From the IMG/VR virus record IMGVR_UViG_3300034522_000071, positions 1 through 46,053 of that record: DNA of 46,053 nucleotides; one strand, given 5' to 3'. The translations under genes and the position numbers were made by a program. The notes under the pieces were generated by a model that did no database searches, was not told where the DNA came from, and saw only the letters and a list, made by a program, of their open reading frames with translations. Below are positions 2,540 through 30,400 of this stretch, piece after piece (the stretch's first letter is position 1; the number at the start of each line of letters is the position of its first letter). Origin of the DNA: a virus.

Positions 2540-2909
2540 CTCACATGCCCAACACTTTCTCCGTGCCAATGAAACTATGTGGCGGTGCCACATAGCTTGG
2601 TCCGACAGTGCAGCACCGTAGAGAGGGTTATGCATTAGGCCAGCCCTCCCTATGACCCATATCAACTCCCCCAGCAGGCTGTTCAGGCCTTTCCGGTTCA
2701 AGGTGTCAGGTTGGGCCGGCACAGCGTTCAAGTTGGCGCAGCGCCTACGGCTATGCCCCCGAGCGTTAGCCTTTGGCCGAACTCTATTAAACGCCCCCGG
2801 CTTAGGTGCTCTGCCTGAACGTCTGGCCGGTTAAGTGGGGGCTGCAATACCCAGAGAAGCACCCATTCAGTTCGATTACTCAAGGTCAGGATTGCTTAGA
2901 TTTATCGAG
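2540..2909. other. Intergenic gap between Rhs locus and prophage
   Basis: About 370 bases separate the immunity gene from the first prophage gene. Short open frames exist on both strands (for example 2652-2834 and 2462-2731), but they lack convincing ribosome binding sites and overlap each other. The left attachment site of the prophage should lie here or just inside the neighbouring gene. I cannot identify it because the right attachment site is not in the window. Confidence 0.5.
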
Positions 2910-3641: not shown

Positions 3642-4226
3642 ATGTTTGAAGAGATCAAAGTTAGCTTCAGCATCCGCCCCAAGCATTTGCTGCTTTCCCC
3701 GCTTGGCATTCTGCTGGCGTTTGGAGTTTATAAGCTCCCTTGGTCTGACAGTAACGCTCCTGCTTGGGTACAAGCTGTTGGATCTATAGCAGCAATCTTC
3801 GCGGCGATATGGATTGCGAACATTCAGGAGCGTCAGCGAGAGGCTCAAGAAAAGGCGAGAGCTCGGCAAGATGCAGAGAAAATTGCGTCTCTGGCCTCTT
3901 TTATCGGGGCTAGGGTGCTGAACGCCTGCCAGTTCTTGACCACCCCATTTCGTGAAAACCGAGAGATCATCCTTAGATTTGTCGATGAGGTGGATGAGTG
4001 TCTGTCCCTCGCCCAGCGAGTGGACCTTGCCCATATCCCCGGTGCTGATCTGACGAGGGAGTGGTTCTTTTTTGTTAATTGGATATCGACAGTTTCTGAT
4101 CAGTATCACTGGCGATCTGGAAAAAGAGAGCAGGGCAGTCTCGATAACCTCATGCCTCCTGAGAGTTTCATCCAACAGGGGACCATTTTTCTTCAAGCTG
4201 TAGTTAGAGCCGCTAGCAAGCAGTGA
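3642..4226 (+). CDS. Membrane protein, candidate prophage moron
   Basis: A 194-residue protein lies on the strand opposite to all its neighbours. It has two hydrophobic segments (about residues 18-32 and 43-61), then a charged, probably coiled-coil stretch (QERQREAQEKARARQDAEK), and a soluble C-terminal half. Its base composition is AT-richer than the flanking phage genes. A lone, oppositely oriented gene with its own expression signals inside an early operon is typical of a moron expressed from the lysogen, for example for superinfection exclusion or phage defence. That role is inference from position and topology; I recognise no family. The start is preceded by GAGAAG at a suitable distance. 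Confidence 0.7.
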   Translation: MFEEIKVSFSIRPKHLLLSPLGILLAFGVYKLPWSDSNAPAWVQAVGSIAAIFAAIWIANIQERQREAQEKARARQDAEKIASLASFIGARVLNACQFLTTPFRENREIILRFVDEVDECLSLAQRVDLAHIPGADLTREWFFFVNWISTVSDQYHWRSGKREQGSLDNLMPPESFIQQGTIFLQAVVRAASKQ

Positions 4227-4228
4227 GC

Positions 4229-5314
4229 TCATGCTGCACCACCGTGCTCTGTGGCCAGAGCAGCGTCGATATCGGCATGGTCTGCGAGGGCGTAGGCGTA
4301 GTAGATGGCCTGCGGTGCATCAGGCCACTCCCGGCGTAGAGTCTCGAAGTCGCCTTCGTTCCAGCAGCGCAGGAAACTCAGCGGCTCTTCGCGGTGGCCG
4401 TCGTGCAGCATGTAGTCGATTACTGCGTTGAAGGCTGCTTCCGCTCGGGGCACATCGGGTCCGGTGACCAGCTCGTGATCGAACGGCACCTTGAAGCCGG
4501 CCGCGTTGCGGTGGCCGCCGCCGCCGTACTGCTTGGCGATCTCGCCTACGTCCAGGCCATCGTTGCTGCTGCGCAGGGAGAAGTAGCGGTGCTCGGAGGT
4601 GTCCTGATAGCAGGCGGCGAAAGGTTCGCCCTGGGCCATCAGGTGGCCGGCGTCGCTGGAATGGATGTAGGGCATGTTCGCCACGGGCACATCATGGCCG
4701 GCGATGAGCATGCGGCGCTTGCTGCCGGCCACCAGCTCGGCCACGTCTTTGTGGTGCTTGCGCTCGATGGCGGTACCGGCAGCGATGGCGGCGCAGATCG
4801 GCTGCTGCATCAGCGCATCCCACATTTCGAAGTCATAGGGGTAGCTGAACAGGTTGGCCTGAATCTCGCGGGTGCCTTCCAGCTTGAAGCGCCAGAGGTC
4901 GCGGTCTTCGATGTGGTTGATCAGAGCGGGGCGTGGCTGGCCAGGGTTGAAGTAGTCCCAGGTCAGGCCAGCGCCAGAGCGCTCCATGTCGAAGACAGTG
5001 CCGACGCGCTGGGTGGAAGTGGCCCACTCGCGGAAGTTGGCAGGTGCTGGTTGCAGGCGTGCCAGTGCCTCGGCCGCTGTCTTGTGGTGGTCGATGATCA
5101 GGATCGAGCGCGCCTGGTGGCCGAGCAGGACCAGCAGCTCATAGGGGTAGGAGAAGTCCACGATGATGACGTCGCGGCCTTCAACGTCCGGCGCTGGGGT
5201 GCCGTAGTGGCCGGCGTGGAACTCGACGTTCTCGGCACCCAGCGCCTGGCGAACCACCCAGGCGGCACCGAAGCCATCGGCGCAATTGGCGTGATAGATG
5301 GAAAGCGTCTTCAT
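4229..5314 (-). CDS. DHH/DHHA1-family phosphoesterase
   Basis: This 361-residue protein has the DHH superfamily motifs in order: HANCADGFGA near residue 8 (motif I), IIVDFSYP near residue 50 (motif II), IIDHHKTA at residues 73-80 (the DHH signature), and a C-terminal GGGGHRNAAGF glycine-rich motif of the DHHA1 domain near residue 265. Relatives are Mn-dependent phosphodiesterases acting on short oligonucleotides (NrnA), cyclic dinucleotides or single-stranded DNA (RecJ). The length fits NrnA/GdpP-like enzymes without membrane domains. A role in nanoRNA clearance or cyclic-dinucleotide removal is possible but not shown by the sequence. It overlaps its upstream neighbour by 4 bases. Confidence 0.88.
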   Translation of the reverse strand: MKTLSIYHANCADGFGAAWVVRQALGAENVEFHAGHYGTPAPDVEGRDVIIVDFSYPYELLVLLGHQARSILIIDHHKTAAEALARLQPAPANFREWATSTQRVGTVFDMERSGAGLTWDYFNPGQPRPALINHIEDRDLWRFKLEGTREIQANLFSYPYDFEMWDALMQQPICAAIAAGTAIERKHHKDVAELVAGSKRRMLIAGHDVPVANMPYIHSSDAGHLMAQGEPFAACYQDTSEHRYFSLRSSNDGLDVGEIAKQYGGGGHRNAAGFKVPFDHELVTGPDVPRAEAAFNAVIDYMLHDGHREEPLSFLRCWNEGDFETLRREWPDAPQAIYYAYALADHADIDAALATEHGGAA

Positions 5315-5799
5315 GCTGCCTTCCCCTGTTCTGCGGTTTCAGAGGCGGGCAGGGTGGCCACCAGGCGGCGGTCCATGTCCTGGACCAGGCCCATCAGGTC
5401 GCGTGCGCGCACGGCAGAGTCGTTGGCCTGCAGGCCGGAGAAAGTGGCGACGGCCAGCTTCAGCATGGCGTTGACGTCGGCGAGGACCAGGCGATCGGCA
5501 ATACCGAACGGCGAGGCGCGGCGGGCATAGATGGCGATTCGCTCGTCGCAGTCCTGCATGATCGCTTCGAGCTGGTGGCCGTGCTCCATGCGGGCAGCGG
5601 CGGCCTGTTCCTGCAGGCGGGCGATGTCCTGGTTCAAGGCGGTGATGCGCTGGCCCTGTTCGAGCAGAGCGGCCTCGTAGCCTTGGTCATAGCCGTTGGA
5701 GTGGGCGGTACCGGCGGTGCGGCGGTAGTAGACGGCAAAGCCGATCAGGGCCAGCACCAGGCCGGCGATGATCAGGGTGAGCAGAGTGTTGGTTTGCAT
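5311..5799 (-). CDS. Membrane-anchored coiled-coil phage protein
   Basis: The 162-residue protein has one N-terminal transmembrane segment (LLTLIIAGLVLALIGFAVYY, residues 6-25), followed by a predicted coiled coil (GQRITALNQDIARLQEQAAAARMEH) and a helical C-terminal domain. The arrangement suggests a cytoplasmic domain tethered to the inner membrane. It shares a four-base overlap with the downstream DHH phosphoesterase gene, so the two are translationally coupled and may act together. GAGGA lies about 9 bases before the ATG, and a stem-loop with a CTCTGAC loop lies upstream of it. I recognise no family. Confidence 0.75.
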   Translation of the reverse strand: MQTNTLLTLIIAGLVLALIGFAVYYRRTAGTAHSNGYDQGYEAALLEQGQRITALNQDIARLQEQAAAARMEHGHQLEAIMQDCDERIAIYARRASPFGIADRLVLADVNAMLKLAVATFSGLQANDSAVRARDLMGLVQDMDRRLVATLPASETAEQGKAA

Positions 5800-5822
5800 G
5801 TGCTGTGTCCTCGTAGAGCCCG

Positions 5823-5852
5823 CCGCCGGGAATTGCTGTCAGAGTCCGGCGG
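5823..5852 (-). repeat. Stem-loop with CTCTGAC loop, intercistronic
   Basis: Read on the minus strand, a 7-bp perfect stem (CCGCCGG / CCGGCGG) encloses a loop that starts A-CTCTGAC. It lies in the 62-base gap between the PrtN-like gene and the membrane coiled-coil gene, about 20 bases upstream of the latter's SD. It shares its loop word with the five tandem hairpins at 8612-8888 and the hairpin at 7535-7571. Confidence 0.6.
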
Positions 5853-5861
5853 TGGGGTGGG

Positions 5862-6098
5862 TTAAGCCGCCTGCTCGGCTCGGGAGTCGAGGTAGGCGGC
5901 CAGGTCCGTCAGGCGCACGTACAGCGGCGCCAGGCGGGAATCGGTGTGCTTGAAGGTGGGGAGGGCGACCTCTCCGTTGCGGATCAGGGCGCGTAGGCGC
6001 TTCTCCGTTTTGATGTGCGGGAAGTAGTGCTCGCGCACGTGCTCCAGCGCCAGGCTGTTGGCCTTCCAGCGCTGCTGCAGTAGCTCCAGCGTTGTCAT
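5862..6098 (-). CDS. PrtN-like pyocin-activator family regulator
   Basis: The 78-residue product matches the PrtN/pyocin activator family pattern: a leading helix LELLQQRW, then YFPHIKTEKRLRALIRNGEVALP, a segment with S-LAP, and the terminal LTDLAAYLDSR helix. PrtN activates pyocin operons in Pseudomonas; short homologues are widespread in Pseudomonas prophages as regulators. I chose the ATG at 6098 because the longer open frame upstream (to 6347) has a composition typical of a shadow and overlaps the upstream gene extensively. The ATG overlaps the upstream stop by four bases. Confidence 0.82.
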   Translation of the reverse strand: MTTLELLQQRWKANSLALEHVREHYFPHIKTEKRLRALIRNGEVALPTFKHTDSRLAPLYVRLTDLAAYLDSRAEQAA

Positions 6099-6460
6099 GC
6101 CGCCTCCCCGCGCCCCGCCGGGAGCCGTAGCCGCACCAGCTCGACAAGACTGTCGACAGTCTTGCCGCGTGCGTGGGTGGCGATGTTGCCGGCCTCGGCG
6201 GTGACCACCACGCCGAAGGGGCGCACCTGGTCGGTGGTGAGGGTGACGTGGGGCAGCCAGCCGCGGGGCATGAGAGCCAGCAGGGCGGTGTACAGGCCGA
6301 CCAGCTCCAGCGCCTGCTCCGGGATGCCCTCCAGGCGCTGGATGCACTCGGCGGCGGCGTCGCGCACGGTGGCTGCGTCCACGGCGGTGGGGTTCTGGAA
6401 GTGCATGCCGGCCAGCTTGACCACGCCGATGGCGTCGGTGATGGGGTTGGGCTTGCTCAT
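6095..6460 (-). CDS. Phage protein of unknown function
   Basis: A 121-residue protein in the leftward early operon, with ATGA-type overlaps to both neighbours. It is mainly helical in its first half (TVRDAAAECIQRLEGIPEQ) and has a beta-rich stretch with an exposed basic C-terminus. No motif that I recognise is present. Its consistent operon packing supports that it is real. Confidence 0.72.
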   Translation of the reverse strand: MSKPNPITDAIGVVKLAGMHFQNPTAVDAATVRDAAAECIQRLEGIPEQALELVGLYTALLALMPRGWLPHVTLTTDQVRPFGVVVTAEAGNIATHARGKTVDSLVELVRLRLPAGRGEAA

Positions 6461-6741
6461 GCGGCGGTGTCCTTCTGCGGGATTTCCTTGATCTCGATGC
6501 GCATCTGCTTGGCCAGCCAGTCGATGCCCTGCTCGGTGACCTTGAGCACGGCGTAGTGCTTGCGGTGGCCGAGGTGCTTGGGCTGGGTGACGCGCGGCTC
6601 CATGAACAGGTTGCCGCCGCCGATGTGCTTGGCCGCGAGGGTGCCGTCCTTGTTCAGGTGGCCCTTCTCGCGCAGCCAGGCGCGCAGCGCGTTCTCGCGG
6701 ATGCCCAGCACCTGGGCTGCTTCGTTGAGGGTGCGGTTCAT
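6457..6741 (-). CDS. KilAC-type (ANT) DNA-binding phage protein
   Basis: The 94 residues cover essentially one phage antirepressor KilAC domain: LNEAAQVLGI, then LRAWLREKGHL, an intermediate G-Gx-N segment, and HRKHYAVLKVTEQGIDWL near residue 62. In larger antirepressors this domain follows a Bro-N or Rha domain; here it stands alone, so the gene is probably a small regulator rather than a full antirepressor. It overlaps the downstream gene by four bases and is 11 bases after the stop of the upstream gene. Confidence 0.8.
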   Translation of the reverse strand: MNRTLNEAAQVLGIRENALRAWLREKGHLNKDGTLAAKHIGGGNLFMEPRVTQPKHLGHRKHYAVLKVTEQGIDWLAKQMRIEIKEIPQKDTAA

Positions 6742-6752
6742 GGCGGCGGGCC

Positions 6753-7286
6753 TCAGGCGGCGAGGAGTTCTTCAGCGTGCGAGGCTAGGGATGCGTACAC
6801 ATCCCCGCGACTGCCTGAGCACACGCGGGTGTTCGAGCCCTTTCCGACGATGCCTGTTGCCTTGTTGCTGTCCGGCGAAAGGTGCACGGTGACGTGAAGG
6901 CATCCAGCGACAGTGGCTTGGCCGCCTGTGCGGGTTACGGTGCGCAGGGCGCGCTCGTCCAGCTCGGACAGGGTTTGAGGCACATGAGGTTCTTCGAGAG
7001 GGCGCGGCTCCACCTCGCGTGCGGATTCGACCTGACCGTTCGCAATCTCCTCGATGAAGTCGCGCAGGTGCAGGTGGTTAGCGCGGTCGCGGCGCTTGAG
7101 GGTGAGGCGGTCAGAGCGGCCGCCGATCTCGATAGCAATCAATGCGGAGGCATCGGTCAGCTCGACGCTGAAGTCGGCTCGCAAGGTCTGCTCGGGACGA
7201 GATAGCTCAACTGTCGCAGCGCCGCCAACCTGCAGCATGTGGTGCAGCAGTTCTTGGCGGGCCAGGGGAATTCGGTAAGCGCTCAT
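6753..7286 (-). CDS. Phage protein of unknown function
   Basis: This 177-residue protein is the second gene of the leftward early operon. Its ATG overlaps the stop of the first gene. The N-terminal half alternates strands and helices and contains an acidic segment (EVEPRPLEEPHVPQTLSELD), followed by a beta-rich tail. I recognise no family. A CTCTGACC word occurs inside its coding strand near 7107 but lies partly in a weak stem, so I do not count it with the stem-loop set. Confidence 0.7.
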   Translation of the reverse strand: MSAYRIPLARQELLHHMLQVGGAATVELSRPEQTLRADFSVELTDASALIAIEIGGRSDRLTLKRRDRANHLHLRDFIEEIANGQVESAREVEPRPLEEPHVPQTLSELDERALRTVTRTGGQATVAGCLHVTVHLSPDSNKATGIVGKGSNTRVCSGSRGDVYASLASHAEELLAA

Positions 7287-7534
7287 GCTGCGTCACCTCC
7301 GAACGGGCCGGTGGACTCATCAGCAACCTGGTAGCGGCGCGCCTGAGTGCTTGCCGGGAAGGGATCGGCGGCGCCAGTGGTGAAGTAGAAGGTGGGTTTG
7401 TGGAGCTGGGGCTTGCCGCCGTTGAGCACCACCAGCTGGCCGGTGGCCTGCTGTACGGCGCGCACTGCGTCAGGGTTGGTGGTGCAGGCCGGGTGCAGGA
7501 GCACCGGGCAGCGGGCGTGCTGTGTCGTTTGCAT
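7283..7534 (-). CDS. First gene of leftward operon, small phage protein
   Basis: I place the start at the ATG at 7534 (MQTTQHARCPVLLHP), giving 83 residues, rather than at an in-frame start further upstream at 7573. The downstream start has a GGAG about 8 bases before it, whereas the upstream one would lie inside the promoter region. The protein has no recognised domain. Its SD and initiation region are embedded in a strong stem-loop (7535-7571), so translation initiation may be controlled by RNA structure or a bound protein. Confidence 0.65.
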   Translation of the reverse strand: MQTTQHARCPVLLHPACTTNPDAVRAVQQATGQLVVLNGGKPQLHKPTFYFTTGAADPFPASTQARRYQVADESTGPFGGDAA

Positions 7535-7571
7535 GTCGCGTACTCCAGAGGTCAGAGAGTGGGTACGCGAC
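7535..7571 (-). repeat. Stem-loop with CTCTGACC loop abutting a start codon
   Basis: On the minus strand a perfect 9-bp stem (GTCGCGTAC / GTACGCGAC) encloses a further CCA/TGG pair with a bulged A, and a loop containing CTCTGACC (7557 to 7550). The 3' arm ends on the base immediately before the ATG at 7534, and the GGAG SD lies partly in the stem. If the promoter proposed at 7573-7602 is right, transcription starts near 7566, inside the 5' arm. The RNA stem would then be shorter than the DNA palindrome. Confidence 0.65.
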
Positions 7572-7572
7572 A

Positions 7573-7616
7573 AAAATACGACTATGAATTCATTCTAGTC
7601 AATACGTGTATGAATT
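7573..7616 (-). promoter_or_regulatory. Leftward early promoter and operator candidates
   Basis: On the minus strand TTGACT (7602-7597) and TATTTT (7578-7573) are separated by 18 bases, forming a plausible promoter for the operon starting at 7534. The spacer holds an approximate palindrome at 7580-7600, outer arms GACTA/TAGTC, centre ATGAATTCAT. A second related half-palindrome with GTATGAATTTTTA lies at 7608-7620. The GAATTC core recurs at the rightward promoter, which suggests that both are bound by the repressor. Confidence 0.55.
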
Positions 7617-7617
7617 T

Positions 7618-8280
7618 TTAATTTGTCCGGCGGCGGCGATTCATCCATGAGCCTGTCACAACACCGCAAATTTCAGTGCCGTCAGGGACGGTGATGATGC
7701 GATTGGGGAACTCTGGATTGAGCGCCAGCAGGTAGGTTCCGTCCTCAGTGATCTGCAGTCGTTTGAACGTCGCCTGGCCATCTGGTGTGCGAGCAACGAT
7801 GTCATCGTCGTGCAACGGCTCAATATTCGGCTCGACCAGAATGAGTTCGCCTGGGCGGTAGTCTGGGAACATGCTTGTGCCTCTGACCTCCAGGCAAAAG
7901 GCACCATTGCTATGAGGGAAGGGGCAGTCCAGCCATTCCTCGGCATAACCTGGTTCGAACAAATCAATAGCCTCGCTTAGGGCGCCAGCCTGCACCCAAG
8001 ATATCCGAGGTACCCTTCCCTTGATGTCAGGGCCGGCAACCACGTTCTCGTCAAAATCCGTCTGAAGCTGTCCTGCCAGCAATGCGGCAGAATCCAGGCC
8101 GAGTGCCCTGGCCAGCTTGTTCACATTGTCTATTCGAGGGTTGTTTGACTCACCGCCGAGAATGCGGTGAGTCGTCGGCTGAGCCACTCCAGCGCGGCGC
8201 GCAAGCTCGGTCTCATTCCACCCGAGCTCCTTCAGCCTCTCGGTGAGCAGACGGCCTATCAGCTGTCCAGAAAACGCCAT
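7618..8280 (-). CDS. CI-like prophage repressor with S24 peptidase domain
   Basis: The 220-residue protein has an N-terminal HTH (LKELGWNETELARRAGVAQP, residues 17-36, recognition helix following) and a LexA/CI-type S24 autoprotease domain. The cleavage dipeptide is Ala98-Gly99 in SWVQAGALSE. The catalytic Ser136 is in VRGTSMFPDYRPGE and Lys173 in ATFKRL. It should repress the lytic promoters and be inactivated by RecA-stimulated self-cleavage after DNA damage. It is transcribed leftward, divergently from the Cro-like gene, and is separated from the operon at 7534 by that operon's own promoter. Confidence 0.93.
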   Translation of the reverse strand: MAFSGQLIGRLLTERLKELGWNETELARRAGVAQPTTHRILGGESNNPRIDNVNKLARALGLDSAALLAGQLQTDFDENVVAGPDIKGRVPRISWVQAGALSEAIDLFEPGYAEEWLDCPFPHSNGAFCLEVRGTSMFPDYRPGELILVEPNIEPLHDDDIVARTPDGQATFKRLQITEDGTYLLALNPEFPNRIITVPDGTEICGVVTGSWMNRRRRTN

Positions 8281-8324
8281 CCGGGGTTGCTCCAGATTTC
8301 TTAGATGAATAATCCGAGAGTGTA

Positions 8325-8376
8325 TTGCTCCAGAGAATTCTCCTGGGTATTATCGTGAGAATTCATCAGTGAATTT
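8325..8376 (+). promoter_or_regulatory. Rightward early promoter with operator candidates
   Basis: TTGCTC (8325-8330), a 17-base spacer and TATTAT (8348-8353) make a good sigma70-type promoter facing the Cro-like gene. The spacer contains the perfect palindrome GAGAATTCTC (8333-8342). A related site, GAGAATTCA, lies at 8357-8365, around the expected start of transcription, and GTGAATTTTTGG follows at 8369. Sites sharing the GAATTC core lie over the leftward promoter too, so these are likely repressor/Cro operators. Confidence 0.62.
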
Positions 8377-8388
8377 TTGGTGTCCGTG

Positions 8389-8577
8389 ATGACTATTCAA
8401 CAGATGCTCGAAGCGCTCCTGGGAGCAGGGCTAAGTCAGCAGGAAATTGCGGGGCTGACAGGGGTTAGTCAGCCAACAATCTGCAGGGCACACCGAGGCG
8501 CTGAGGTTCTCTACAAAAGTGGCAAGCAAATCGAGCGGCTGTACCAGGAACGCCTGGGAGACAAGGCAGCTGCTTAA
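8389..8577 (+). CDS. Cro-like helix-turn-helix protein
   Basis: The 62-residue product from the ATG at 8389 (TIQQMLEALLGAGLSQQEIA, then GLTGVSQPTICRAHRGA) is almost entirely one HTH domain with a short C-terminal helix. An alternative TTG start at 8377 would add four residues. It lies divergent from the repressor and is the first gene of the rightward early transcript, the standard position of Cro. It would compete with the repressor for the operators at 8333-8365. A GC-rich hairpin (GGCCCC cgaa GGGGCC, 8585-8600) follows the stop codon. Confidence 0.82.
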   Translation: MTIQQMLEALLGAGLSQQEIAGLTGVSQPTICRAHRGAEVLYKSGKQIERLYQERLGDKAAA

Positions 8578-8611
8578 GGGTGCCGGCCCCCGAAGGGGCC
8601 AGCGGGGTGCT

Positions 8612-8888
8612 GCTCTGGACTCTGACCTCCAGAGCGGCGGGTGGCGCGGGACTCTGACCTCCCGCGCCTTGCCTGACGAGGCTCTGACCCCTCGGCAGGC
8701 GCACGACGCCTGATGCGGACACAGCACATGTGGGGAGCATCAGGTCGCCGTAGCCGGAATAGTAGGGGAAGCCCTGCTGGCTGGCTATGTCGTTAAACGG
8801 CGGCTTTCGGTAGTAACCCGCGCAGGGACTCTGACCCCTTGCGCGGTTTAGGCCCCGGGCGGTGCGTTCTCTGACTCGCGCCGCCCGG
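8612..8888 (+). repeat. Five tandem stem-loops with a shared CTCTGAC loop
   Basis: This is a non-coding stretch of 361 bases between the Cro-like and CII-like genes. It contains five hairpins with unrelated stems. (1) GCTCTGGA 8612-8619 / TCCAGAGC 8628-8635, loop CTCTGACC. (2) GGCGCGGGA 8643-8651 / TCCCGCGCC 8660-8668, loop CTCTGACC. (3) 8671-8681 / 8690-8700, 10 of 11 pairs, loop CTCTGACC. (4) CCGCGCAGGG 8818-8827 / CCTTGCGCGG 8837-8846 with one G-U, loop ACTCTGACC. (5) 8855-8866 / 8877-8888, 12 pairs with one G-U, loop TTCTCTGACT. Stem sequences differ while pairing and loop are kept, which points to selection on a folded RNA or cruciform. Between hairpins 3 and 4, 8701-8817 holds nothing that I recognise. 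Confidence 0.8.
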
Positions 8889-8938
8889 ATCAAGCACAGC
8901 ACGCTGCCGGCCCCGCCTGGGGCCGGCTTGGGGTAAGC

Positions 8939-9427
8939 ATGAGCCGACTTGACCTTTTGCCGGACGCTGGTCCGGTTCTCTCCATCCGCCAGGCGCTGTA
9001 CCGCGCCGGGCGCGACTACCGCGGCGGGGTTACTGGCCTCGCACTCGACCTGGGCATGGATCTGGATGCCCTGCAGAAGAAGCTGAAGTTCGACTTCGAG
9101 GCCCGCTGGCCCACGCCGGACGAGCTGGAAGAGATCATCGAAGCCACTCAAGACCCGCGTCTGTTGGATGCCCTGATGCGACCGGCCGGTGCGGTTTGGT
9201 ATCGCCCTGAGCCGGTTGCGGCTACCGCCGAAGCCCTGAAAGGGGTAGGGCTGTTGCTGCGGAAGGAAGGCGAGTTCGTTTACAGCCTGCACGAAGGGGC
9301 GGCGGACAATGTGTGGCAGCCCCACGAGGTGGCACTGCTCGAGCACCATGGCAATGAGGTTATCCGCGCTGTGCTCGGCATCATGGCCGGCGCCCGCGCC
9401 GCGATGGAGGGCCGCCAGGATGGATGA
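8939..9427 (+). CDS. CII-like phage regulatory protein (CP76 family)
   Basis: The 162-residue protein matches the CP76-type phage regulatory CII family in size and layout: an N-terminal segment (SIRQALYRAGRDYRGGVTGLA), a central LDALQKKLKF motif, and a helical C-terminal half with DELEEIIEATQDPRLLDAL. Such proteins in P2- and D3-type phages are HTH regulators acting in the lysis-lysogeny decision. The start has GGGG about 6 bases upstream, immediately after the stem-loop array, so the array forms the leader of this gene on the rightward transcript. Confidence 0.78.
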   Translation: MSRLDLLPDAGPVLSIRQALYRAGRDYRGGVTGLALDLGMDLDALQKKLKFDFEARWPTPDELEEIIEATQDPRLLDALMRPAGAVWYRPEPVAATAEALKGVGLLLRKEGEFVYSLHEGAADNVWQPHEVALLEHHGNEVIRAVLGIMAGARAAMEGRQDG

Positions 9428-9629
9428 GGCCCAATTCGAGCAGGCACAGCGGCTGCAGGACGAGCGCCTGCAGCATGCCATCGCCAACCGAGTGCAGTAC
9501 CAGGGCGAGAGCGCCCTGGAGTGCGAGTCCTGCGGTATCGACATCCCCGAGGCCCGGCGTCGGGCTGTACCGGGGTGCCGATATTGCGTGGATTGTCAGG
9601 GGATTCGAGAGGGAAAGCGCGAATGCTAG
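9420..9629 (+). CDS. TraR/DksA-family zinc-finger protein
   Basis: A 69-residue protein whose ATG at 9420 overlaps the end of the CII-like gene. It carries a DksA/TraR-type zinc finger, Cys35-x2-Cys38 and Cys53-x2-Cys56, with a third nearby Cys59, after a short helix. Small TraR-type proteins bind in the RNA polymerase secondary channel and mimic DksA plus ppGpp, shifting host transcription. Phage copies of this family are common next to early regulators. The longer upstream open frame (to 9309) is a shadow of the CII-like gene. Confidence 0.85.
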   Translation: MDEAQFEQAQRLQDERLQHAIANRVQYQGESALECESCGIDIPEARRRAVPGCRYCVDCQGIREGKREC

Positions 9630-10090
9630 CTTCTTACTTCTTTCGCCGCTTTGGGGGACTTCTCCCCTACCTTGATCACCTTCACTTGAGTTGCTTCGAG
9701 CTTCTTGGCACCCCTTCTGGCTGCGACGGTGACAGCCAGAGGCCTGGAAGTGCGATTGCGAACAGCCTTAGCCAAAACACCTTCGAAGCTTGCAAAAGAA
9801 CTCTCAAAATTTTTCGTGAGCAGTTCTTGTTGCTTGGCAACCGCAAGCAAGAGATCAGTCATCGAGTGAAGCTCATTGATGCTGACCTCAAGCTTCTCTT
9901 CTTTATCGTTGAGAAGAGCTTTTCTGAGAAGGCTATTGATCAGGGTTTGGTAGCCAATACCTTCCGCATCCGCTCGCTCTCTAGCTGCATTGAGAACTTT
10001 ATCGTCGAGCATGATAGTGATGCGCGATTTGCCCTTGCTGGGAGCAACTGGGCCCCGCTTTGCTTCGCTGAAGTCGTAACTGTCTTTCAT
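9626..10090 (-). CDS. brnA: BrnA-type antitoxin
   Basis: This 154-residue protein has a ribbon-helix-helix-like region near residue 22 (RITIMLDDKVLNAARERADAEG), followed by IGYQTLINSLLRKAL, the usual BrnA pattern of a strand followed by two helices. The C-terminal part is longer than in typical BrnA proteins and ends in a Lys/Arg-rich tail. It lies directly downstream of a BrnT-type toxin gene, in the order toxin then antitoxin that is normal for brnTA. It neutralises BrnT and represses the pair's promoter. Confidence 0.85.
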   Translation of the reverse strand: MKDSYDFSEAKRGPVAPSKGKSRITIMLDDKVLNAARERADAEGIGYQTLINSLLRKALLNDKEEKLEVSINELHSMTDLLLAVAKQQELLTKNFESSFASFEGVLAKAVRNRTSRPLAVTVAARRGAKKLEATQVKVIKVGEKSPKAAKEVRS

Positions 10091-10093
10091 GAT

Positions 10094-10372
10094 TCACCCT
10101 GCCAAGTATTCATCGATCTCGTGGGGTTCAGCCTTACGGGTCGAAATCAAGCGCACAAAGTCTGGATCGCGATAGGTGTACGAGACCACCAATATTCTGC
10201 CGGTTCCATCGTTGCCGATGGTCACCCAGCGCTGCTCATCAGGGTTCTCGTCTTCCATGGTCAATGCGAGCGGGTCATAGAACGGGCCTTCGCCATCGGC
10301 CAAGTGCACTTTGTGTTTTCGAAAATTTTCCTTTGCTTTCTTGGGATCGAACTGAACTCTGAATTCTTTCAT
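10094..10372 (-). CDS. brnT: BrnT-type toxin
   Basis: The 92 residues fit BrnT in length and motifs: VQFDPKKAKENFRKHKVHLADG near the N-terminus (the F-D-xxKAxxNxxKHxV signature), DPLALTMED, RWVTIGNDGTGRILVVSYT and the terminal VRLISTRKAEPHEIDEY. BrnT is a RelE-fold ribonuclease that stops translation. The pair is encoded against the rightward early operon, so it has its own promoter and can be expressed in the lysogen, where it may stabilise the prophage. Confidence 0.88.
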   Translation of the reverse strand: MKEFRVQFDPKKAKENFRKHKVHLADGEGPFYDPLALTMEDENPDEQRWVTIGNDGTGRILVVSYTYRDPDFVRLISTRKAEPHEIDEYLAG

Positions 10373-10376
10373 TATG

Positions 10377-10389
10377 CATACTTTGTATG
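10377..10389 (-). promoter_or_regulatory. Palindromic operator candidate for brnTA
   Basis: CATAC-TTT-GTATG is a perfect 13-base palindrome 4 bases upstream of the brnT start codon. Type II modules of this kind are repressed by antitoxin or by the complex binding such a site. Confidence 0.5.
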
Positions 10390-10412
10390 TATTTGTTATG
10401 AGTCAGGGCAGT

Positions 10413-10426
10413 CTTCTGGACAGAAG
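10413..10426 (+). promoter_or_regulatory. Hairpin with GGA-type loop before the primase gene
   Basis: CTTCT-GGAC-AGAAG can form a short hairpin exposing GGA about 12 bases before the ATG at 10438. This resembles a CsrA/RsmA-type site. With only five to six pairs it could be coincidence; it is noted because the phage encodes an RsmN-like protein. Confidence 0.25.
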
Positions 10427-10437
10427 GGCTTGCGAGT

Positions 10438-12960
10438 ATGAGCGCCCCGGCAAGTCATGCCAAATTGGCGAGGCGCTATATCGAGAAATTCGGCATGGCG
10501 CTGGTATCCATCGACCCGGGCCAGAAGGCGCCCAAGGGCAACGGCTGGAACAAGCCGGGCGGCTACTTCACCGATGCTGACCAGGCCGAGGCCTGGTGGA
10601 CCAAGCACCCGAAGCACAACATGGGCGTGGTGCTGGGCCCGAGCGGTCTGTGCTCGCTGGACGTGGACCATGTTGACTACTGCCGCCAGGTGTTCAGCGA
10701 CGTGCTGGGCATCAACCTGGATGACATGGCGGTGGTTTACCCGACGCTGGTGGGCAACCCGGCGCGCTTTCGCATTCTGTTCAAGGTGCCGGAGGGCCTG
10801 GAGTTCAGCCGTCACTCGCTGAGCTGGCCGAACCCGCTGGACCCGGACGGCAGCAAGCACAAGCTGGCCACGGCGGCGCTGAAACAGGCGCGGGACACTA
10901 ACGACAAGGCGCAGATCGAGGCCATGCAGGCGCGGCAGAAGGAGTTCGCGCCGGTGACGGTGTTCGAGCTGCGGGCCGGGGCGGTGCAGGACGTGCTGCC
11001 GCCCTCGATCCACCCGGACACTGGCGCGCCGTACGTCTGGCGCAACCCGCCGGCTGATGGCCTGATCGAATTGCCCAGCGACCTGGTGAAGACCTGGCAG
11101 AACTGGGACATCTTCAAGCGCACGGCGCTGGAATGTTGCCCGTGGGCGCCGGCCGAGACCAAACCGCCGGCCAAGGTGAAGAAGAGTTCGCCGCCACGGT
11201 TGCCGGCTGGTGAGCACCCTTCGGTGATCGACAGCTTCAACCGGGCCACCGATATCGAGAGCCTGCTGCAGCGGCATGGCTACATCAAGCGCGGGCGCAA
11301 GTGGCTCGCGCCGCAGAGCTCCACCGGCCTGCCAGGGGTGAATGTGGTGGATGAGCAGGGCGAGCAGCGCCTGTATTCGCACCATGGCTCCGACCCGCTG
11401 GCCAATGGGCACATGAACGACGCCTTCGATGTGTTCTGCATCCTGGAGCACAACGGCGATACCTCGGCGGCGATCAAGGCTGCTGCGCGATCGCTGGGCC
11501 TGGAGCACAAGCGCTCCGGCCCGAGGCCGCCTGAGCCGCCACCGGCTGAATATTCCCACGTCCCTCTGGATGAGCCTGAACCAATGACTGACAGGGATGC
11601 CTTGACCCCAAGCAACCTCCCCGGCGCCCCCACCGTTGCGAGCGGTGAAGCAGGGCCGGACTCGGCCGGTGCACACACACCGGGGGGCGAGGGGGGCTTT
11701 CGCATTGGTGAGCAGGAGCTGCTGAAGGACTTCGTGCTGATCTACGGCACTGACTTGGTGTGGGACTGCAATCGCCGGCGGATGGTGAAGCTGGCGGCGC
11801 TGCGCGAAGTGGTCGGGCGGGAGCGAATCAAGCTGTGGCAGGAGAGCCCCTATCGTCGGGTGGCCGAGGATGTGCTGTTCGACCCGACCGAGCAGTGCGG
11901 GCCGACGATGTTGAACCTGTACGACGGGTTCAAGATGGCCCCAGCGCCAGTGGGGCAGGAGGGCTGCCGCAAAATCCTGGCTCACCTCGGGCGGCTGTGT
12001 GGAAACCGGAAGGACGAGTATCTGTTTGTGCTGCGCTGGATCGCATACCCCCTGCAGAACCCCGGAGCGAAGATGGCCACCTCCATCGTGATGTTTGGTG
12101 CGGAGGGGCCTGGTAAATCGCTGGTGTGGGAGAAGGTGGTCAAACGCATCTATGGCGAGTACGGCGTGACCATCGGCCAGGCGCAGCTGGAGAGCCAGTT
12201 CACCGGTTGGCAGAGCCGCAAGCTGTATGCGCTGGCCGAAGAGGTGGTGAGCCGTCAGGAGATGCGCCACTACAAGGGGCTGCTGAAGCACCTGGTGACG
12301 GGCGAGACGCTGCAGATCAACGAGAAGATGCAGAGCCTGCGGGAGGAGCGGAACCACCTGAACTTCGTGTTCCTCTCGAACTCGACGGTGCCGCTGGAGC
12401 TGGACGATGGCGACCGGCGATATCTGGTGCTGTACGTGGACCAGGTGCCGCCGAAGGAGTACTTCACCGAGCTTGTGCATGAGATCGAGAACGGCGGGGT
12501 GGAGGCGTTCTATCAGTACATGCTGACCCTGCCCATGGATGGCTTCAACGAGCACACGAAGCCGCCGCTGAACGAGGAAAAACAGGCGCTCATCGAGGGC
12601 AGCCTGAGCCCGGCGCGCTACTTCCTGAGGGTGTGGCAACGGGGCGAGCTGGATCTGCCCTATGGGGCGGCGGTGGCGGGCGATCTGTACCGGGCGTTCT
12701 GCCGATGGTGCGAGCGGGCCAATGAGTTCAAGCGACGTGAGCGGGAGTTCTATCAGGAAATCCAGCGTGACCTGGTGCAGGTGCGCAAGGACATCAAGTT
12801 TCCTGATCAGCATGCTGACTTCAAGACGTGCCGTATCTACATGCCCAAGGCACTAGAGGCGCGACGAGATGAGCCGGACTGGCTGAAGGATGTGGCGCTG
12901 CAGTGCCGGGCTTTCCACGGGGCGCTGAGTGATCGCTACAAGCTGGCCGAGGCGGCGTGA
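10438..12960 (+). CDS. Phage DNA primase-helicase
   Basis: The 840-residue protein combines two replication domains. The N-terminal about 250 residues fit the bifunctional primase-polymerase type: KFGMALVSIDPGQKAPKGNGW, then MGVVLGPSGLCSLDVDH with the acidic metal-binding pair, and NPARFRILFK. The C-terminal half is an SF3/D5-like helicase of the DUF5906 type with a Walker A FGAEGPGKS at about residues 553-561, Walker B-like KLYALAEEV, and an NHLNFVFLSNS sensor segment. A proline-rich linker at about residues 360-420 joins them. It should prime and unwind DNA at the phage origin; the iteron cluster immediately 3' of it is the probable target. No separate DnaB or DnaC homologue is present. Confidence 0.9.
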   Translation: MSAPASHAKLARRYIEKFGMALVSIDPGQKAPKGNGWNKPGGYFTDADQAEAWWTKHPKHNMGVVLGPSGLCSLDVDHVDYCRQVFSDVLGINLDDMAVVYPTLVGNPARFRILFKVPEGLEFSRHSLSWPNPLDPDGSKHKLATAALKQARDTNDKAQIEAMQARQKEFAPVTVFELRAGAVQDVLPPSIHPDTGAPYVWRNPPADGLIELPSDLVKTWQNWDIFKRTALECCPWAPAETKPPAKVKKSSPPRLPAGEHPSVIDSFNRATDIESLLQRHGYIKRGRKWLAPQSSTGLPGVNVVDEQGEQRLYSHHGSDPLANGHMNDAFDVFCILEHNGDTSAAIKAAARSLGLEHKRSGPRPPEPPPAEYSHVPLDEPEPMTDRDALTPSNLPGAPTVASGEAGPDSAGAHTPGGEGGFRIGEQELLKDFVLIYGTDLVWDCNRRRMVKLAALREVVGRERIKLWQESPYRRVAEDVLFDPTEQCGPTMLNLYDGFKMAPAPVGQEGCRKILAHLGRLCGNRKDEYLFVLRWIAYPLQNPGAKMATSIVMFGAEGPGKSLVWEKVVKRIYGEYGVTIGQAQLESQFTGWQSRKLYALAEEVVSRQEMRHYKGLLKHLVTGETLQINEKMQSLREERNHLNFVFLSNSTVPLELDDGDRRYLVLYVDQVPPKEYFTELVHEIENGGVEAFYQYMLTLPMDGFNEHTKPPLNEEKQALIEGSLSPARYFLRVWQRGELDLPYGAAVAGDLYRAFCRWCERANEFKRREREFYQEIQRDLVQVRKDIKFPDQHADFKTCRIYMPKALEARRDEPDWLKDVALQCRAFHGALSDRYKLAEAA

Positions 12961-12962
12961 TG

Positions 12963-13183
12963 TTCCGACATTCCGACACATATCAGACAGATATTCCGAC
13001 AGGACGCAGGCGCTCTAGATCGCTGGTTTCCTACGTTCCGACGCATATCTGAGAAAGAGACATCGCGCGTGCGCGCATGTATGGTTTTTATCGATTCTGC
13101 TGTCGGACTGTCTGAACTTTAATTAACTGCATGTTTTTTAAAGAAAAATCATTCAGACAGATATTCCGACACGAATCAGACAG
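12963..13183. repeat. Iteron cluster, candidate phage replication origin
   Basis: Directly after the primase-helicase stop, TTCCGACA occurs at 12963, 12971, 12994 and 13164, with TTCCGACG at 13036 and the reverse complement TGTCGGA at 13101. A second word, TCAGACAG, occurs at 12983, 13153 and 13176. The 19-base unit TCAGACAGATATTCCGACA is repeated exactly at 12983-13001 and 13153-13171. The stretch between them is AT-rich (AATTAACTGCATG, runs of T and A at 13132-13150). Iterons plus an AT-rich segment next to a replication gene are the classic form of an origin. Confidence 0.65.
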
Positions 13184-13210
13184 AAGTTTTTAACCGTAGG
13201 AGTACATGGA

Positions 13211-13588
13211 ATGGCTGTTTACAAGGTTGAGAAGGGTGAGCTGGTCAAGGTGGGCGATACGCTGGAGGGCTTGGTGCGCGAGGACTGGGCCGAGTGGGAG
13301 AACTTCGAGAGCGGTTTTCTGGGCGACTTGCTGAAGTTTCGGCTGTATGACGAAGCAGATGATGTGTACCTGCTTTATCGCCGCGAGGATGCTGCCAGGC
13401 CAGAGGGCGAGCTGCCTGGGGTGAAGTATCTGTTCGACGTGAACATCGACGAGTCGAACATGGATTTCATCCTGGTCGAGGACTCGCTTCCGCAGTTCCT
13501 GACTGTGCTGAAGCTGCTTGAGCCGTTGGCTACCCGCAAGGTGCGGTTGGATGCGGAGTTTGAGAAGGCTGCGCAGGCGCGTCGCTGA
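13211..13588 (+). CDS. Phage protein of unknown function
   Basis: An acidic 125-residue protein (for example LYDEADDVYLLYRREDAARPEGE), beginning after a good SD (AGGAG at 13198-13202). It lies between the candidate origin and the gene in the Q position. It contains no motif that I recognise. Confidence 0.75.
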   Translation: MAVYKVEKGELVKVGDTLEGLVREDWAEWENFESGFLGDLLKFRLYDEADDVYLLYRREDAARPEGELPGVKYLFDVNIDESNMDFILVEDSLPQFLTVLKLLEPLATRKVRLDAEFEKAAQARR

Positions 13589-13610
13589 TTACTGCAGGGG
13601 AAGGCACAGC

Positions 13611-14255
13611 ATGATCGAAGCAATCGAAACCGTGATGAGGCACTGGGGCGAGGCTGTGCGCTGCGGCGTGCCCAGCGGTGGCCTGGGTAGCCCGGCCGGG
13701 ACTCTGGTGGAGTGGAAGGGCTGCCCGCCGCGCACTGGGGCCGCAGGCTCGCGGATGCTGCTGGCAGGGGCTGGGCCTGATTACCTGGTGAGCGAGGTGA
13801 GTGCAGCGCTGGCTGCGGTTGAGCGGACCGAGGGAGGCGAGCTGCTGCGCCGCCTGGCGTATCGCCGGTACACCTTCGCGCCAGCGCTGACGGTGGAGGA
13901 GCAGGTGCGCGACCTCGATCTGGGCCGGGGTGATGCCGGGCGCCGGGCGTACACGCGCCTGGTGGGGCGCCTACATCAGCTGGTTGAGGCCGAGTTAAAA
14001 GCGCGTCTTGCGCGGACAGAAAGCCAGCAGCGTGAATCAAAGCGGGAGGGTGAGCGGATGCGTAAGGCCTCATTGCGGCAAGCCGCCAGAGCGCACCGTG
14101 GGCGTGGGCTTGAGTTCGAAGAGGCCCAGGGCGGGCAGGGAGCGATCGCCGCTCACAAGGCGCGAAAGGCTTCGCGCTGTGACCGTTCGTCGGGCGACTC
14201 GGCGCCAGTCGGCGCCGTAGCGCCCCGGCAAGCCCCCGTCAGGAACAACCGTTAA
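13611..14255 (+). CDS. Phage protein in the antiterminator Q position
   Basis: I start this gene at the ATG at 13611 (MIEAIETVMRHWGEAVRCG), preceded by GGGGAAGG, giving 214 residues. The upstream in-frame extension to 13518 overlaps the preceding gene and is ignored. The protein is rich in Arg and contains EEQVRDLDLGRGDAGRRAY and a long basic helix (ARLARTESQQRESKREGERM). It lies directly upstream of a strong terminator and the lysis/packaging operon, the place where lambdoid phages encode the late antiterminator Q. Sequence similarity to known Q families is not evident to me, so the role is inferred from position. Confidence 0.65.
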   Translation: MIEAIETVMRHWGEAVRCGVPSGGLGSPAGTLVEWKGCPPRTGAAGSRMLLAGAGPDYLVSEVSAALAAVERTEGGELLRRLAYRRYTFAPALTVEEQVRDLDLGRGDAGRRAYTRLVGRLHQLVEAELKARLARTESQQRESKREGERMRKASLRQAARAHRGRGLEFEEAQGGQGAIAAHKARKASRCDRSSGDSAPVGAVAPRQAPVRNNR

Positions 14256-14381: not shown

Positions 14382-14412
14382 AAAACCCCGCTCCGGCGGG
14401 GTTTTCTTTTTC
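14382..14412 (+). terminator. Rho-independent terminator before late operon
   Basis: AAAACCCCGC (14382-14391), loop TCCG, GCGGGGTTTT (14396-14405), then CTTTTTC. It stands between the Q-position gene and the first holin gene, as the lambda tR' terminator does. It predicts an antitermination-controlled late transcript. Confidence 0.88.
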
Positions 14413-27488: not shown

Positions 27489-30400
27489 ATGGCTGGTATC
27501 AAGGATCGCCTGATTCAGTTCATCCTGCGTGGCAAGGACGAACTGTCTCCGGCGGCGAAGACCTCGGCTGAGGCTCTAGACGCCGTATCTCAGGAGGCTG
27601 CTCGACTTGGCCAGGCGCTTGATGATGCCAAGGGGGCGCAAGGGCTTGGCAAGGCTCTGGAGCGCACCGTGCGCGATGTGGCCCTGGCGCAGCGGAATCT
27701 GAGCCAGGCTGAGCAGCAGGTGGTTGATCTGCGCGAGGCGCTCAACAAGGAGCCTGAGGCTGCTGGTCTGCAGCAGTCGCTCAAGGATGCCGAACGCGCT
27801 GCAGGCCGTGCTCGTCGCCAGCTCAATGCTCTGGATGCTGAGCTTGCCGATACCGAGAAGGCCGCCCAGGCTGCCGGCATCGACACCCATAACCTGGGCG
27901 ACGAGCAGCAGCGCCTCGCGGCTCAGGTGACCCGGGCGCAGCAAGCGCTGGCGGCGAACAATCAGGAGCTGAAAGAAGCGCAGCGCGCCCATGCCGCCGC
28001 CGCCCGCTCTGCCGCCGAGCACACGTCCCGGGTTGATGCGGTGCGGGCTGGCATGACCAGTGGCGCCAAGCAAGTTCTCGGTTTCGCTGCGGCCTTCGTT
28101 TCGCTGAATGCCATCATGGGCCTTGTTCAGAAAGGCCTGAACCTGGTGCGCGATGGCATCTACGCGATGCTGGGTACTGGTGATCAGTACGAACTGCTGG
28201 GCAAGCGCATGGCTTCCCTGATGGGCGGCATTGCCCAGGGGGAGCAGGCTACCGCCTGGATTAAGGACTTTGCCAAAAGCACCCCGCTGGAGGTCAAGGA
28301 CGTCACCGAGGCCTTCGCGCTGCTCAAGTCCTACGGGCTCGACCCAATGGACGGAAGCCTGCAGGCCATCGTCGACAAGAACGAGCAGCTCGGCGGCGGA
28401 ATGGAGCGGCTGCAGGGAATCAGCTCTGCCCTTGGCCAAGCGTACGCCAAGCAGAAGCTGCAGACCGAGGAGATCCTGCAGCTCGTGGAACGTGGCGTGC
28501 CGGCCTGGACGCTACTGGAGAAGGTCACGGGCAAGAACGCTGCCCAGCTCGCCGAACTCGCCAGCAAGGGCAAGCTCGGTCGTGATGTGATCGCCGGGTT
28601 GATCGATGAAATGGGCCGCAGCGCCGAGGGAGCCGCGGCGGACAATATGAGCACGCTGACCGGCCTGGTCAGCAATCTGTCTGACACCTGGTCCGACTTC
28701 CTCAACCGCATCGCCAAGAGCGGGGCCCTCGACTACGCGAAGGAGCAGCTCAAGGGCGTAGCCGACTACATCGACCAGATGGACAAGGACGGCCGGTTGG
28801 ACAAGCTGGCCACGTCCCTCAGCAACGCCTTCCAGCAGGGCGCGGAGAAGTTGAAGGAGTTTGCCGCCAGGCTAGTCGATACGGATTTCGAGAAGCTGCT
28901 CGACGACTCCAGTGCTTGGTTGGACAACTTTGGCAGCCACTTGGAGTCCGCTGCTCAGAGTGTCCAGCTGTTCATTGCGCCGTTCCGTACTCTGGTTAAT
29001 GGTGTGACTTCCGGCCTTTCGCTGGCCGGTGCCGGCTTGGCGCAGTTCGTGGATTTCGCGCTTGCGCGCCTGGAAGTGCTGGCCAAGGCCGTGCCTGCGT
29101 CGATTGGCGGCGATGAGTTGCGAGCGTCGATTGCCGAAGCGCGTGGCTTGATGGCCAGCCTGACCGATGGCTTCCTCGCTCAGGTTGAGCAGGACGGAAA
29201 GGACATCCAGGCCGCATGGGATGTCACGTCCAAGTCCGCAGCTGAAAGTGCCAAGGAGCAGACTGAGGCGGTGCGCCGCGAGTCGTCTGAGCAGATGCTG
29301 CTCGGGCAGGCTGCCGCAGACCACTTCGTTGCCAACCAGAAGCGCAGCAGGGATGCAGCCATTGAGGCTGCTGCGACGGGCCGGCAAGCCATCGAGGGTA
29401 TGGCCCAAGCCCTGCAGCTGCTCGACTCTGCCTCCACCGTGCAGCAACTGGAGAGCCTGCGTGGCGCCCTGCTCGATGCATTCCAGACTGGCAAGCTCAG
29501 CCAGGAAGAGTATGCCCAGGCCACTGGCGTGCTGTCGGGTCGCATCAAGGACCTGCAGGGCGCCGCATCTGGCGCGGCCGATGGCGTGTCCGACCTGGAG
29601 GAAAAGCTGGGCGACCTCAAGTCGGTGCAGGCTGCGATCAGCAGTGCCAAGACGGACGTGGACATCAACAACATCCGCACCGCCCTGCGCAAGCTGTACA
29701 ACGATGGAGAGATCACCGCCAGCCAGTACAACCAGGCGCTGAAGGAAACCAGCGAGCGGCAGAAGGAACTCAAGGGGGCGGTCCAGCAGGGCACCAAGGC
29801 CCAGCAGGATAAGAACAAGGCCGACGAGGATGCCATCGTCACCTCCGAGCAGCTGCGCCGCGAGAGCGGCAAGCGCATGGAGGCCGAGCGCCAGGCAGGC
29901 GATGCAGCGATGCAGGCTCGGCGCAAGGGCAGCGAGGAAGCCAAACGCGACATGAGCGCCATGGAGGGCTTCTTTGGCGGCGTACTGAGTCGAGCACGTG
30001 AGCCTCTGGCTGGGCTGAGCAAGGCTGCCCTAGACGCCTATGACAAGTTGCGTGGCATCAAGTCGGCCGACTTGGAACTTGATACCAGCAGCCTCGAAGC
30101 CACCTCTCGATCTTTGGAGAAAGTAAGCAAACAGCTCGGTGCGGTCGGCTCAGCAATGGTTGACCCGCTGACCTCGCGTTTGGGCAAGTGGGCGCTCAGC
30201 GCCCAGCGGGCAAGCCTGGAAACACAGCAGGCTTACCTGGGCCAGAAAGCCTCTCTGCAGTCGCTGATGGAACGGTACGAGAGCGGCCAGATGACGCTGG
30301 CTGGCTTTGCGAATGCGGCTGCCTCTGCAAAGAGCCGGCTTGGCCTCCTCGATGACTCTGACTTGAGTGGGCTTGAATCCGCCATCAAGTCTGCAAAGGA

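Follow-up and report, generated by a model that had tools for sequence, protein, structure and literature searches.

Putative two-part RNA sites with a phage-specific loop word in both early operons of lambda-like Pseudomonas phages

How lambda-like phages of Pseudomonas pass through their early operons with no homologue of N is the question raised by the immunity region of the virus record considered here, and the repeated sites found in it may offer an answer that is both precise and testable. The window is the whole of this record, 46,053 bases. In its lambda-like layout it resembles the P. aeruginosa phage YA3, in which no N homologue was found by its authors, who suggest that another gene behind pL replaces N; a difference is that no nut-like RNA is described in the accessible portion of the YA3 report (PMC7326022).

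The immunity centre of the window is made up of a cI-like repressor gene (7618-8280, minus strand) and a small HTH gene in the position of cro (8389-8577, plus strand). A CII-family gene (Phage_CP76; 8939-9427, plus strand) follows immediately 3′ of the right arm and opens the rightward replication operon. In the position of lambda N, the first left gene (7283-7534, minus strand) encodes an 83 amino acid protein of phrog_13491, whose function is unknown, and ahead of this operon is a promoter-like sequence with a -10-like hexamer ending at 7573. The early right operon ends, before the late genes, at a strong intrinsic terminator (14382-14405, plus strand), and most of the relatives printed have a terminator at a similar place, some 4.3-5.8 kb past the CII start.

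Hairpins and a second box in the window

Hairpin loops with the sequence CTCTGAC(C) number five in the rightward leader (8608-8888, plus strand) and two in the leftward operon on the minus strand. An earlier note had drawn attention to a leader hairpin, a hairpin in an intercistronic gap and a rightward array, and each is borne out; the observation is real and larger than was first reported. The left leader hairpin (7535-7571, minus strand) has a perfect 9-bp stem with arms at 7563-7571 and 7535-7543, and is apparent from folding and from covariation in 46 related leaders. Its loop carries CTCTGACC, with the word at 7551-7557, its 3′ arm abuts the ATG at 7534, and the Shine-Dalgarno of the first left gene is within its 3′ half. 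The internal left hairpin (5823-5852, minus strand), just past a PrtN-family gene, has a 7-bp stem and the word CTCTGAC at 5838-5844. The right array consists of hairpins at 8608-8639 (word from 8620), 8643-8668 (word from 8652), 8677-8694 (word from 8682, with the outer stem resuming beyond a mismatch), 8818-8846 (word from 8829) and 8855-8888 (word from 8869), all on the plus strand.

Counted over the seven early copies, the perfect stems are of 10 and 7 bp on the left and 8, 9, 5, 7 and 3 bp on the right, the last-mentioned length becoming 12 bp once G-T pairs are allowed; perfect stems of at least 7 bp occur at 0.8% of window positions. RNA folding gave z scores of -3.7 for the leader, -2.3 for the internal left site and -4.5 to -4.9 for the right arrays.

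Each hairpin group is followed 3′ by a second box, with the consensus [AG]CACAGCAC (8719 and 8894 on the plus strand, 7525 and 5808 on the minus strand). For the left leader it is ACACAGCAC at 7517-7525 (minus strand), within the first left gene (codons 4-6), and for the internal left site it is the same ACACAGCAC at 5800-5808 (minus strand), between the Shine-Dalgarno and the ATG of the ORF at 5311-5799. The right arm has ACACAGCAC at 8719-8727 and then GCACAGCAC at 8894-8902, both on the plus strand. There are five boxes in the window, four of which are these downstream boxes.

CTCTGAC itself occurs 13 times in the window, against a mean of 6.8 in shuffled sequence (13 or more in one of 100 shuffles), and all seven early-region copies are in the sense of their operon. 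Two others count slightly against a clean picture. One at 7881 (plus strand) is in the cI coding sequence, in antisense orientation, and one at 7110 (minus strand) is within an ORF and has a perfect stem of just 4 bp; both are without a downstream box.

Strand and loop word among related phages

A search with the first left protein yielded 21 loci, 20 with a site directly in front of the gene (L144 is unrelated at the site, and the sites of L142 and L143 were read by eye). A search with CII contributed viral loci (the best 80 of 163) and 65 loci in named genomes, with Pseudomonas accounting for nearly all, and named phages were added. In all 155 loci were examined, of which 42 were unscorable and 113 scorable on both arms; collapsing 11 with identical right arms left 102.

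Most relatives have, on the right, one to five hairpins with CTCTNAC loops and then a box before cII, and on the left a hairpin where the first left gene begins and a box within the first codons of that gene, together with at least one internal left site that is typically past the PrtN-family gene. The loops are mostly 8-20 nt long. Under a strict cut-off, 190 of 208 right copies and 157 of 227 left ones are in hairpins, compared with 296 of 3454 background words, and a box is within 120 nt of 403 of 793 CTCT[GC]AC copies as against 40 of 1012 control words. At three loci (G018:C15:172456, G021:C5:123598 and G022:C33:260994) there is a further kind of internal left site, with the class word and box but apparently without a hairpin.

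In eight whole host genomes, 25 of 27 combined-pattern matches, among the matches listed, are in prophage. The combined pattern matched in 78 of 298 genomes of the genus, a sample with possible overlap with the 65 named genome loci; by eye, 27 genomes have at least two matches within 10 kb, and none of these mixes letters (26 have C and one has G). Scanning viral contigs for three close CTCTGACY copies gave at least 119 stretches. Among loci from the matches listed, the window-type array recurs in L030, L046 and L110, besides the window's own L001 and L002; most other triple stretches look like chance or simple repeats.

The sense of the word follows transcription almost without exception, so that the orientation which the earlier note likened to that of nutL and nutR, far from being random in related phages, holds across them. 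The GAC class was found 61 times sense and never antisense on the right, and 52 times sense against four antisense on the left; the corresponding figures for the CAC class are 210 against nine and 268 against four (135 classed loci, with near-copies uncollapsed and 'right' taken as everything downstream of -950). The four antisense GAC copies on the left are the cI-region copy, that at 7881 in the window, in related phages.

Which word is present depends on the phage: CTCTGAC, CTCTCAC or CTCTA.., and by eye also ACTTACC, ACTCACC, ACTGACC and CCCACC. Across the 102 non-redundant loci, the left-site word was of the right-arm class at 182 of 184 left sites, in a count that used a loose cut-off for hairpins (11, which half of the background words pass), took in only the listed words (and so passed over CTCTGCC, the exceptional leader word of L156) and lumped, as the A class, leader CTCTACC/T with right-arm CTCTACACC or CTCTAAC. 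Exchanging the left sets between loci gave a mean of 126 and a maximum of 147 in 10,000 shuffles, a control that ignores kinship. Both mismatches are in one phage, a Pseudomonas panipatensis prophage (L271) whose right arm is mixed (CTCTGAACC and CTCTACT) and whose left sites have CTCTACC. A cruder count that took the last CTCT before the box, now superseded by the hairpin-based one, had 82 of 102 loci identical; its 20 mixed loci are mostly due to a CTCTAC that intervenes between hairpin and box at the internal left site, or to the A class being spelled either ACC or ACA. The words agreeing between arms by eye are ACTTACC in PG1, ACTCACC in pAN and L142, ACTGACC in L143 and CCCACC in Halomonas phage H4907. 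In H4907 (L334:3780-3890, plus strand, and 2590-2630, minus strand) the second box is also replaced, by CAAACCAATGC, and this too is matched in both arms. T after CTCT was considered as a further class and rejected, since its 54 matches in viral contigs are about the estimated chance number and none has a second copy near a box.

The leader, internal-left and right hairpins of different phages can be otherwise the same with G or C swapped in the loop, at all sites together, and such a single-letter change everywhere at once is a stronger argument than shuffling for a phage-specific tag. The P. aeruginosa phages Lodos (CAC) and LPPA56 (ACAC) are 97% identical over 30 kb, and their PrtN-family, KilAC-like and primase proteins reach 99-100% identity, yet leader, internal-left and right sites all differ in class between the two. 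Because such near-identical phages differ, host species is rejected as the setter of class; P. aeruginosa phages carry both CAC (Meadow, Turba, Lodos and Presto) and ACAC (LPPA56). The locus L147 (at 109, minus strand) has an internal left CTCTGAC with no scored hairpin, while its leader and right arm have CTCTCAC, and it is probably a recent recombinant because the proteins by this internal site share 97-100% identity with their counterparts in a GAC phage. Independent class-switch events are few, since a CII tree of 101 rows has eight class changes on the best tree, at least two of them forced on well supported branches; both of the two independent pairs on such branches agree between arms.

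What the sites may do

Anatomy, strand rule and within-phage agreement of the word are evident at the level of sequence. Our preferred reading of them, to which we assign a probability of about one half, is a nut-like, two-part early-operon RNA site that would be read by a phage-specific factor and would modify the expression of both early operons. This two-part site is placed at the start of both operons and repeated inside the left one, and consists of one to five hairpins with a phage-specific loop word (mostly CTCTNAC, where N is G, C or A) and then a nearly constant box. The loop word would be read on nascent early transcripts by the phage-specific factor and the box by a second, less variable factor, and both together would alter expression, most likely by making RNA polymerase termination-resistant as lambda N does at nutL and nutR. 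An antitermination-like site fits best with the placement, the strand, the combination of variable hairpin and nearly constant box, and the repetition along the operon. A point against it is that the window showed no strong intrinsic terminator from the sites to the early right operon end (14382), nor in the left operon before 2598; antitermination would then have to act at the end of the right operon or on Rho.

Tentatively, the sites may belong to a so far undescribed system of Pseudomonas and Halomonas phages in which every early site would bear the phage's own loop word and a dedicated small protein, of phrog_13491 or another early protein, would free RNA polymerase from termination; the literature searched held no description of these two-part sites. 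If true, this would be an N/nut analogue made from different parts, with separate early programmes for closely related prophages in one host. The sites point to particular bases that would matter, to natural variants worth comparing and to a handful of candidate readers. Concerted change of the loop word at distant sites would be a natural test case for the switching of RNA-protein specificity, and the words are a possible source of new orthogonal RNA tags.

The lambda boxA is CGCTCTTTA-like, boxB is a short stem with a small GNRA-like loop, and N is a small, arginine-rich protein. As in lambda, one site closely follows the putative pL and another separates the cro-position gene from cII; they are on the sense strand only, with a hairpin plus a linear box, a phage-specific loop matched in both arms and the small first gene of the left operon adjoining. 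Unlike lambda, the hairpin precedes the box rather than following it, the loops are about 8-20 nt with a CTCTNAC word in contrast to the small boxB loop, up to five hairpins are arrayed and there are extra internal left sites. Sequences within one mismatch of boxA number four in the window, below chance, and none is at a site; boxB-type small GNRA-like loops were not found at the sites, and comparison of the first left gene with phrog, Pfam and NCBIfam revealed no N homologue. The lambda likeness proposed in the earlier note thus stands for nutL/nutR-like placement, and the anatomy appears N/nut-like, but membership of the N/nut family fails on three defining features, boxA, boxB and the N protein. 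Covariance models of Rfam had no match at sites up to E = 1 in window positions 4000-14000 or in five relatives.

In HK022, antitermination is mediated by put, an RNA structure with which both early operons begin. The present sites share that placement with put, as known by description, and are set apart from it, also by description, by a loop word that varies between phages and matches within each, which suggests a separate reader. The N/nut variants of P22 and epsilon34, with other boxB specificities, are comparable to the phage-specific loops here. For epsilon34, a new BoxB specificity is inferred by the authors from its divergent N in the available part of their paper (PMC2629481).

Unlikely as a general explanation, though it accounts for some features of the left arm, is a translational operator, in which a phage RNA-binding protein on the loop hairpins would repress or activate translation of the next gene. 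Coat proteins of RNA phages bind an operator hairpin over the Shine-Dalgarno, and the left leader hairpin is similar in covering that of the first gene and touching its ATG, while most sites here differ in being clear of ribosome binding sites. The internal left box, between a Shine-Dalgarno and an ATG, is also in keeping with translational control. So is a conserved hairpin in the last 40 nt before CII, present in many of L145-L224, with a Shine-Dalgarno-like loop (ACCGTAAA..GGAG..TTTACGGT-TATG); it is likely a separate translational element. The right arrays do not cover a ribosome binding site, their hairpins being from about 330 to about 50 nt before the CII start with, in relatives, several more structures between. 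Moreover the box is after the ATG in the left leader, before it at the internal site and at no gene start on the right, and in H4907 it is a different sequence in both arms. Translational control, which the earlier note considered possible at 7534 with the Shine-Dalgarno in the stem, lacks support as a general role.

Binding as duplex DNA, with inverted repeats plus word serving near the early promoters as, for example, an operator, is quite unlikely, and what speaks for it is the leftward start. The leader palindrome overlaps the promoter, and the caution in the earlier note about the start holds: in a transcript from the predicted start at 7566 the remaining stem is weak (-6.5 kcal/mol, z 0). 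Among 61 related leaders examined, 42 had promoter-like sequence, and in 25 of these 42 the predicted +1 is at the inner part of the 5′ arm, on the C or the G of CGTA. With the start falling in the hairpin arm, the outer pairs of the left leader, and with them much of its covariation, may be untranscribed and exist in DNA alone, or the start may be further upstream than predicted. In the 46 left leaders 85% of cells pair and changes on both sides are seen in five of nine pairs, with a covariation score of 0.211, where slid structures score no higher than 0.073. Against a DNA site are the distances: the right arrays are about 220-500 nt downstream of where the cro-position gene starts, and 1.7 kb separates the internal left site from the leader in the window (up to about 3.4 kb in relatives). 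The fixed strand relative to transcription is also against it, as is the constancy of the loop word while stems change: 205 of 208 right-arm copies are in a hairpin under the loose cut-off, with 76 distinct apical stems.

Candidate readers of the loop word

The earlier note suggested that a protein encoded by the phage could be the ligand, and a loop word that varies from phage to phage while being matched in the two arms lends support to this, with the ligand itself only a candidate. The leading candidate, obvious because its gene is directly 3′ of the left site, is the small protein that the first left gene encodes, and we name it with reserve. Its sole match is phrog_13491, with nothing in Pfam, NCBIfam or PDB sequences, and two AlphaFold runs gave models of low confidence, too weak to use (mean pLDDT 60 and 66). 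Alignments of A, C, D, PrtN, CII, TraR and primase contain no column that sets GAC apart from CAC. For the first left gene, the class purity of nearest neighbours is 10 of 15 for GAC and seven of eight for the A class; for both this gene and CII the best GAC/CAC pairs are about 92% identical and no identical pair was found, though CII is 99% identical between the AAC phage and an ACAC phage. Both genes adjoin sites and may simply travel with them. The PrtN-family, KilAC-like, TraR-like, primase and after-primase genes are unlikely class setters, each being 98-100% identical across classes in some pair, and cI, which exchanges freely, is rejected on nearest-neighbour class purities of two of 15 (GAC) and none of eight (A class). 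As far as sequence comparison goes, no universal early protein tracks class cleanly.

Very unlikely is a host factor that would read only the constant part (such as ACC), with the variable letter neutral and agreement between arms due to co-inheritance of early regions. The small number of class switches forced would suit it, as would the closeness of left leader, cI and right arm and the travelling of the first left gene with the leader, but agreement extends to the internal left site, which is separated from the rest by genes with 92-100% identity across classes, and hairpins that are otherwise identical have one and the same letter changed at every site. Least likely is an antisense or guide RNA of the phage carrying the complement of the loop word, the two changing together: it would explain agreement between arms with no class-tracking protein, and the cI mRNA of the window does bear a complement (word at 7881, plus strand), but the complement is unconserved, the cI copy being restricted to four related GAC phages and the antisense word being nearly absent from the early region of the 135 classed loci, and the whole Lodos genome, on both strands, has just five CTCTCAC copies, four of which are sites.

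Some other features of these early regions merit mention. The left operon of LPPA56 (L123:817-1007, minus strand; 27878-28068 of the record) has a strong match to the Rfam RT-15 RNA (172 bits, E 9.5e-42) near two long ORFs of unknown function. Two small leftward ORFs in the window (9626-10372, minus strand), between the TraR-like gene and primase, are, we presume, possibly a toxin-antitoxin pair of the BrnT/BrnA kind. The protein encoded after primase (13599-14255, plus strand) has a relative in all 14 phage genomes compared and matches the PA0613 family below threshold, and in Halomonas phage H4907 the gene at this position is annotated as an antitermination protein.
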